A DNA stretch of 34,707 nucleotides from Desulfobulbaceae bacterium (GTDB lineage Bacteria; Desulfobacterota; Desulfobulbia; Desulfobulbales; Desulfobulbaceae): the NCBI GenBank assembly GCA_015489765.1, contig WFZC01000243.1, positions 1 to 34,707 of the forward strand. Direction: 5' to 3'. Numbering within the stretch: position 1 is the first letter of the stretch; each line of letters starts with the position of its first letter. The translations under genes and the position numbers were made by a program. The notes below the pieces were generated by a model. That model did not search any database. It was not told the origin of the DNA and was given only the letters and a program-made list of their open reading frames with translations. Below, piece by piece: positions 10,583 through 34,707 of the stretch.

Positions 10583-10773
10583 CCAGCATGGCTGGACCAT
10601 ATTGGCCAGCCACAACGAACAATGAAAATCTCCGGCTCCGGCATGGGCAGCCATGTCCTCTGTGGGCGATTTTCGGATAATCCAGCATGGCTGTACCATA
10701 TTTTATGTCCCAGCCACAACAAATGATGAAAAAAGTCCGAAAGGACATAGCTATACGGACTGTTTTCGGATAA
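10583..10773 (+). repeat. Two tandem copies (A and B) of a structured ~95 bp repeat
   Basis: Unit A (10583-10680) and unit B (10682-10773) lie head to tail, one base apart. Both begin CCAGCATGGCTG, share CAGCCACAAC in the middle and end TTTTCGGATAA. Each can fold into a 5' hairpin CCAGC-ATG-GCTGG and a 3' stem closed by GAAAA/TTTTC. The 3' stem interior differs: GAAAATC/GATTTTC in A; in B an AGTCCG/CGGACT stem is added inside GAAAA/TTTTC. A third, inverted copy is at 13876-13968. Reading frames crossing this block on the minus strand have no ribosome site and look accidental. Function unknown. Together with the next element it fills the 467-base gene-free stretch 10523-10989. Confidence 0.75.
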
Positions 10774-10782
10774 AAATGTAAT

Positions 10783-10973
10783 TGATCACAGGCTTTGTAA
10801 CCATGTGTTTTCATATACCTTAACCTTGTAATTGGTCAGGGCGCCGTAGATTCGTGCAGGCGCGACTGGTTGCAGCTAATCGTAGCGGAGACACCGATAG
10901 CCCACTATGTAGACAGTCGCGACCGTGCGAAGAGGTAAGCAAGGAACGAGACTCCGTGCGGTGCCCCTGACTA
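10783..10973 (+). ncRNA. Structured repeat element X, copy 1 (candidate RNA or cis-regulator)
   Basis: A block closely resembling 34535-34682. A conserved lead of about 50 bases (TGATCACAGG ... ATATACCTTAA) precedes two nested long-range helices. P1 pairs 10834-10846 (GGTCAGGGCGCCG) with 10959-10972. P2 pairs 10851-10868 (from TTCGTGC) with 10914-10931 (to GTGCGAA). Both helices re-form in the second copy although loop lengths differ by about 43 bases. The element ends 16 bases before the response-regulator ATG, which has no Shine-Dalgarno sequence of its own, so this could be a 5' leader. A free-standing small RNA or a REP-like DNA repeat are alternatives. I do not recognise an established family. 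Confidence 0.6.
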
Positions 10974-10989
10974 CTTACTAAAAAAATGC

Positions 10990-11598
10990 ATGAAGAAAAA
11001 AATATTAGTCGTTGATGATGATGAAATAATCCGGACAACACTGGAACTTAATCTTCTTGAGGTCGGGTATTCAGTGGATACGGCGGCTTCAGGTGAAGAG
11101 GCCTGCACCATGTTTGCGAACGGATATGATCTGATTATAACCGATCTGCTAATGGAAGGGGTTGGCGGCCTTGAAGTCCTGCGCCGGGTAAAGAAGCACA
11201 ATCCGTACACCATTGTCTTTATCCTGACCGGGCACGGTGAATTGGATTCCGCTGTCGAGGCATTACGGGCTGGTGCTGAGGATTATCTACTCAAGCCGTA
11301 TAACCACGATGAGCTGCTGATGCGAATTGATCGTGTTTTTGAGAAACAGGACATGCGTACGACCATTGATCTGTATGAAAATATCCTTTCGGTCTGCAGT
11401 GAATGTAAAAAGATACGCGATAATACCAGTAACAAACAGGGAGATGAAAACTGGGTTTCCATGGAAAAGTATCTCAGCCGTACCACCGGGTCTTCTTTGA
11501 GCCATGGCCTTTGTCCGGATTGCTATCGCAAACGGTTGAATGAGCTGGCAAGTATCAGTGGAGGGATTTCCAGCGATAAAAAAAAGAAAAAAATATAA
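10990..11598 (+). CDS. Response regulator with C-terminal double Cys-pair tail
   Basis: Receiver domain (residues 1-120) with the acidic pair in VVDDDE, phospho-acceptor Asp52 (ITDLL), Thr80 and Lys102 (LKPY), so it should be phosphorylatable. The output is no known DNA-binding or enzymatic domain. It is a short segment with SVCSECKKIRDN (Cys136, Cys139), then ENWVSMEKYL, then SHGLCPDCYRKR (His172, Cys175, Cys178), ending in a lysine-rich tail. The CxxC...H..CxxC layout suggests a zinc or other metal site, or a redox switch; similar tails occur on receivers in sulfate-reducing and related bacteria. No Shine-Dalgarno sequence is seen before the ATG and structured element X ends just upstream. 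It faces the chemoreceptor gene, 105 nt away. Confidence 0.85.
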   Translation: MKKKILVVDDDEIIRTTLELNLLEVGYSVDTAASGEEACTMFANGYDLIITDLLMEGVGGLEVLRRVKKHNPYTIVFILTGHGELDSAVEALRAGAEDYLLKPYNHDELLMRIDRVFEKQDMRTTIDLYENILSVCSECKKIRDNTSNKQGDENWVSMEKYLSRTTGSSLSHGLCPDCYRKRLNELASISGGISSDKKKKKI

Positions 11599-17521: not shown

Positions 17522-17711
17522 TGGCGTCGTAAAATCTTTGATTTACTGTGTCGTTTGTTCCGGGGCGATTCACAACATATTACCTGTATAGTTGAGACCC
17601 GGCCTGAAGCACTACTCCTCGGAGTCTCCGCTTACCTGTATATCTATGTTTTTACTTAGCCATCTTTGAAAAAAAAATGACTTTTTTCGAGGTCATCAAT
17701 TTTATATAACC

Positions 17712-34460: not shown

Positions 34461-34534
34461 CTATTTCAGACCTCCTTGATAGGGGCGGGTGTAAGGTAGT
34501 TTCCGTTTATTGGTCGGAAAAAGCCGCCGCTAAC

Positions 34535-34682
34535 TGATCACAGGATTTGGAACAATGTGTTTTTATATACCTTAAACCTTTAAGTGGTCAGGGGTGCCGT
34601 AGATTCGTGCAGTCGTGACCGGATGCTATAACCCGCTATGCGGACAGTCGCGGCCGTGCGAAGATGCGGTGCCCCTGACCAC
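34535..34682 (+). ncRNA. Structured repeat element X, copy 2, at the contig end
   Basis: Second copy of the element at 10783-10973. The lead TGATCACAGG ... TATATACCTTAA is almost identical. P1 pairs GGTCAGGGGTGCCG (34586-34599) with CGGTGCCCCTGACC (34667-34680), including two G-U pairs. P2 pairs the segment from 34604 (TTCGTGC) with the one ending at 34662 (GTGCGAA). The apical loop is much shorter than in copy 1, while both helices are kept. It is divergent from the CBS-ACT gene; whatever gene lies downstream is beyond the contig. The strand is assigned by analogy with copy 1. Confidence 0.6.
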
Positions 34683-34707
34683 CTGTCTCTTATACACATC
34701 TCCGAGC
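34683..34707 (+). other. Illumina Nextera adapter (Tn5 mosaic end) left on the contig
   Basis: CTGTCTCTTATACACATCT (34683-34701) is the 19-base Tn5 mosaic end used in Nextera libraries, and the following CCGAGC (34702-34707) is the start of the Nextera read-2 adapter. This is a library artefact, not genomic sequence. Confidence 0.97.

Follow-up and report, generated by a model that had tools for sequence, protein, structure and literature searches.

Element X, a putative IS66-mobilised MITE whose + strand appears to be selected for folding

The stem-loops of bacterial MITEs are usually regarded as by-products of their inverted repeats. The ERIC, YPAL, RUP and Correia/NEMIS families are multicopy, intergenic elements of 100–200 bp, the transcripts of which are predicted to form long stem-loops (PMC2229807), and ERIC and Correia/NEMIS repeats have been reported to control the stability or processing of neighboring transcripts (PMC2229807, PMC10969869). 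QMITE2 of Coxiella is a further short MITE, with direct repeats of 7–9 bp and a folded transcript (PMC10969869). ISDge4 is an IS66 element of the ISBst12 group; its terminal inverted repeats (TIRs) are GTGACTACTCAGCA and GTAACTGCTCAGCA, and its direct repeat is 8 bp long (PMC12898284). Outside the transposons, integron attC sites are described as functioning as folded, strand-specific hairpins (PMC6393395).

Element X has features in common with each of these systems, and differs from each. It shares with ERIC, YPAL, RUP and Correia/NEMIS the size range, multiple intergenic copies and a predicted long stem-loop, but its termini and the length of its target duplication are unlike theirs, it carries a record of order-wide covariation and of G•U pairing on one strand, and in its helix the partner of the right TIR is an inner copy, where theirs run end to end. 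It is like QMITE2 in being a short MITE with direct repeats and, most likely, a folded transcript, but compared by description the two differ, as TIRs of 23–29 bp with a core are reported for QMITE2 (PMC10969869). With the ISBst12 group of IS66 (e.g. ISDge4) it has in common termini of the GTAACT..TCA type and an 8-bp target duplication; however, it is ∼157 bp in length, has no transposase gene, and through a third TIR copy makes a covarying hairpin, which is absent from the autonomous copies. Like an attC site it has an imperfect hairpin that is strand-specific and in which unpaired features are conserved, but it lacks an integrase context and makes 8-bp duplications. Recombination at attC makes no such duplications. 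Integron attC sites and hairpin ends of the IS200 type, which insert without target duplication, do not fit the element.

The window is the whole stretch analyzed, 34 707 nucleotides of contig WFZC01000243.1 from a Desulfobulbaceae bacterium. The two copies reported there in the earlier note are real, as are their helices, but their limits have moved. Copy 1, previously placed at 10783–10973, is complete at 10778–10978 on the + strand (201 bp), its ends being fixed by an alignment of 100 copies and their 8-bp target duplications. Copy 2, also on the + strand, starts at 34530 and is truncated at 34682; its right end has been lost because the contig is terminated by contamination, the 25 bases CTGTCTCTTATACACATCTCCGAGC at 34683–34707 being a Nextera transposase adapter. 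Copy 1 opens with its left TIR, GTAATTGATCACAGG (10778–10792, +), which matches the consensus GTAACTGRTCACAGG as well as the IS66 termini of the same genome, GTAATTGGTCACAGGG; this is where the conserved lead begins. The remainder of the AT-rich lead runs to the hairpin (10793–10827, +), and is inside the target duplication; in most copies the lead is ∼45–50 bp in length. The hairpin body (10828–10978, +) was placed by its fold and by a score of 35.3 bits with covariance model R1, and has the right end CTTAC. At its base the right TIR is paired with a further TIR sequence on the left side, an inner copy that follows the left terminus and is the third in the element.

The length of copy 1 arises from two short repeats nested within it, both recognized by comparison with short copies: a decayed repeat of the type GGTAAGCG..AGACTCCG in the apical loop (10874–10896, +) and a second, AGGTAAGCAAGGAACGAGACTCCG, in the 3′ arm (10933–10956, +). 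Nested repeats of this kind, of 17–27 bp, account for the differences in apical-loop length to which the earlier note drew attention. The pattern GGTAAGCG-N0..14-AGACTCCG has 50 exact matches in the genome of the window, G000, compared with none for the reversed pattern. It also occurs at 17620–17636 of the window, and one named copy (L079) contains several in tandem. A different dispersed repeat, comprising two related units of ∼95 bp and having 51 matches in the same genome, lies at 10583–10775.

How widespread is the element? Far from being limited to two copies as first thought, it gives 22 BLAST pieces at ∼17–19 places (at least 17) in its own genome. A covariance-model search of the genome and its relatives, proposed at the outset, matched the hairpin in 151 of 258 genomes of the order and in 52 of 69 genera; in a sample of 395 genomes from the phylum, five that lie outside the order also matched. 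Carriers to which a name could be given, by a DNA pattern search, are metagenome-assembled genomes of Desulfobulbaceae, from which we infer that the order is Desulfobulbales. The element is multicopy and has no transposase gene. The typical copy is 157–158 bp in length; it comprises GTAACTGGTCACAGG and an AT-rich stretch until about base 50, followed by a hairpin of 107–108 bp that opens GTAAGTGGTCA and closes TGACYACTTAC. The earlier note recognized no established family, and indeed no Rfam family reaches its gathering score, nor does any match at relaxed thresholds. Collections of plasmids and phages gave no match, and no description of the element was found in the one literature library searched. 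Some distant hairpins, often near-perfect, have no recognizable lead or duplication (L233, L234, L236, L238, L240, L242, L243, L256 and L262). Several directly adjoin a gene of the opposite strand at its stop codon. No neighbor gene recurs among these lead-less hairpins, which are possibly decayed or retained. At another locus (L089, 2190–2483) a copy is broken within its lead by another hairpin element resembling Element X.

Element X is a transposon, as seen in its TIRs, its exact 8-bp duplications, its empty sites and the termini that it has in common with IS66. In 100 full-length copies from the same genome, genus and family, at least seven of the eight flanking bases are identical in 87 and all eight in 65, where shuffled pairs of flanks give an expectation of about one. 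The duplications abut the GTA..TAC ends exactly, and no length other than 8 bp fits these copies. Distant copies (L246, L250 and L266), in other families and in part outside the order, have the same layout and perfect duplications. Since the duplications bracket the lead and hairpin together, what had been taken for a separate conserved upstream block forms the element's left end, beginning with the left TIR. Across all full copies the duplicated sequence shows a weak target preference, roughly RWTTAAAC, and this may explain insertions at the stop codons of minus-strand genes. The duplication of copy 1 itself, with candidates ATAAAAAT on the left (10770–10777, +) and TAAAAAAA on the right (10979–10986, +), has decayed to five of eight bases, and this counts against our interpretation.

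Copy 1 ends just 11 bp ahead of the start codon of a response-regulator gene (10990–11598, +; Pfam Response_reg, 2.9e-27), and this location is what suggests a leader RNA of that gene. Yet the locus orthologous to copy 1 in genome G013 is uninterrupted, with a response regulator that is 97% identical and no element, and the element is similarly absent upstream of the orthologues in three more members of the genus, G009, G010 and G012. Copies elsewhere adjoin unrelated genes. As had been noted, the start codon has no clear Shine–Dalgarno sequence, but the same is true of the G013 orthologue that lacks the element. These empty sites refute a conserved leader; we see no functional link between gene and element, and a leader function is extremely improbable. 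The earlier preference for an RNA gene or leader over a transposon is borne out only as to the RNA-like structure. The dispersed repeat at 10583–10775 is likewise absent at the G013 site.

The termini lead to IS66. Within the order, members of this family are flanked by perfect 8-bp duplications and end in TIRs that match (GTAACTAATCACAGGG, GTAACCGATCAGGGG, GTAACTATTCAGCG and GTAACTACTCAGCC), and IS66 ends of the type GTAATTGGTCACRGGG are present in genomes G000 and G042. In the genome of the window the termini GTAATTGGTCACAGGG flank a DruA-domain gene and an IS66 transposase, while in G148 a copy of Element X (L226) and an IS66 end (L319) have a common variant, GTAACTATTCAG. TIRs of the IS66 type (GTAAC....TCA) are present in Element X, and an autonomous IS66 relative was found in the same genome as the element in G000 and G148. 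On the basis of these sequences the best filing is as an apparent IS66-type MITE. The weakness of this filing lies in the patchy distribution of IS66 genes. In 4 of 15 genomes tested, all four of which have Element X, no IS66 gene was found (G590, G241, G130 and G071), and in at least one of these, G590, the copies look recent; we infer that the mobilizer of such carriers is absent, has been lost or belongs to another type. The IS66 type bearing DruA in the genome of the window occurs in 17 of 258 genomes, too rarely to be the sole mobilizer. Two such elements of that genome, with DruA-domain cargo (PF14236, Druantia protein DruA domain) beside the transposase, are located at L059, 338–1210 and L060, 3303–4178. 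Nor is the hairpin part of autonomous IS66 elements, as 44 IS66-region loci gave a sole match that is a separate copy of Element X (L308).

The structure of the hairpin is preserved through extensive changes in sequence. In 42 hairpins that are <93% identical, aligned without reference to structure, 95.5% of cells are paired and 26 of 47 pairs have changes on both sides. Compensated cells number 179, compared with 51 in shuffled alignments, and none of 500 shuffles reached the observed value. The helix-preserving changes seen in two sequences are thus upheld well beyond them. The earlier note had set transposon marks without such changes against an RNA-like reading; the marks are there, and the changes are there too. 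Strongly conserved features include two tandem 5′-UG/3′-GU steps, a tandem G•A loop and an apical CTATAG..CTATG.

The same hairpins carry a signature of one strand. Read as the + strand, from lead to hairpin, there are 273 G•U cells versus 26 A•C cells, and in the genome consensus sequences 64 versus 1. The + strand has the lower minimum free energy in 87 of 87 copies. Changes from the consensus within genomes are 91 of G•U type versus 31 of A•C type in the hairpin, whereas in the unpaired lead, which serves as a control, the corresponding changes number 122 versus 117 (Fisher p = 1.6e-5). Wobbles remain at fixed columns, one pair being G•U in 40 of 42 hairpins. Could this be a passive DNA palindrome, in which the paired changes come from hairpin-templated repair and the wobbles from strand-biased mutation? 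Long palindromes are indeed prone to templated correction. However, templated repair would erase the wobbles that are retained here, and the lead of the same copies has no strand bias; therefore neither templated repair nor a general mutational strand bias explains the signature. The counts refute the palindrome unless mutation is biased solely inside the hairpin, and we consider that explanation very unlikely. Rather, these comparisons show apparent selection on folding of the + strand, and not a DNA palindrome.

A folded strand need not be RNA. Single-stranded + strand DNA would produce the same signature with G•T in place of G•U, and this counts against a reading as RNA. So does a scan around copy 1, which found nothing like a sigma-70 promoter in its region and nothing resembling a terminator inside the element. 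In the main rival to our interpretation the hairpin is the folded + strand of DNA, in which the right TIR and the inner TIR make a double-stranded site for transposase during replication or transposition, in the manner of attC. This accounts for the one-strand wobble, and also for a third TIR copy whose fit to the right TIR is better than that of the opposite terminus. Of 1305 cells, 1195 are complementary between the inner copy and the right TIR, whereas the outer TIR matches the right one in 901; at TIR position 5 the inner copy fits the right TIR in 83 of 87 copies and the outer terminus in 5 of 87. But this rival is weakened by autonomous IS66 elements that share the termini of Element X and have no hairpin, so that the hairpin is not needed for transposition. 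Moreover, tandem 5′-UG/GU steps and a tandem G•A loop, both conserved here, are typical of RNA. On balance we regard a folded DNA strand presenting the right TIR as unlikely, though well short of negligible.

If the fold acts as RNA, it might serve the host in cis, as a hairpin in mRNA that governs the stability or processing of neighboring transcripts. Many copies sit at the 3′ ends of genes, and ERIC and Correia/NEMIS provide reviewed precedents (PMC2229807, PMC10969869). Yet a count of orientation over 59 copies, using hexamer-based gene calls, shows no bias toward the sense direction, with 13 sense (L+R+) and 16 antisense (L−R−) tandem contexts. The first set of copies was similarly without bias (12 versus 12), the gene calls there being crude with many false ‘inside’ calls. 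The 3′ ends of genes lie close to the right terminus (p = 0.03), probably reflecting the weak target preference, which contains TTA. We consider a host-level function in cis improbable, to about the same degree as the folded DNA strand. As insertions have no sense bias, the benefit of the fold probably falls to the element itself, and fixed regulation of each neighboring gene is unlikely to maintain it.

We therefore return to Element X as a transposon-borne folded strand. The sequence comparisons make it probable that this is an IS66-mobilized MITE in which selection, acting on the element, favors folding of the + strand, most likely in the form of RNA. Single-ORF IS66 transposases of the ISBst12 type would move it in trans, recognizing the GTAAC..TCA ends and duplicating 8 bp of target; mobilization by IS66 is suggested by those shared ends and duplications. 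The internal 108-nt hairpin would act as the folded + strand, most likely in read-through RNA. Elements keeping the fold would spread or persist better, and the possible benefits include shielding by the RNA from processing or from harmful read-through, and binding of the RNA by a protein.

Element X adds an unlisted structured family, copies of which could be mistaken in annotation for a regulator of the adjoining gene. Its fold is testable, through the one-strand wobble bias and covariation of a family found in ∼150 genomes, and the folded + strand appears to be selected although copies insert in both orientations. Tentatively, a structured RNA or folded strand borne by the transposon may help the element to spread: the transposase site is present a third time, and selection across the order would keep it paired, on one strand, with the right end, as an aid that autonomous IS66 elements lack. 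Why small bacterial mobile elements bear RNA-like hairpins thereby becomes a directly testable question.
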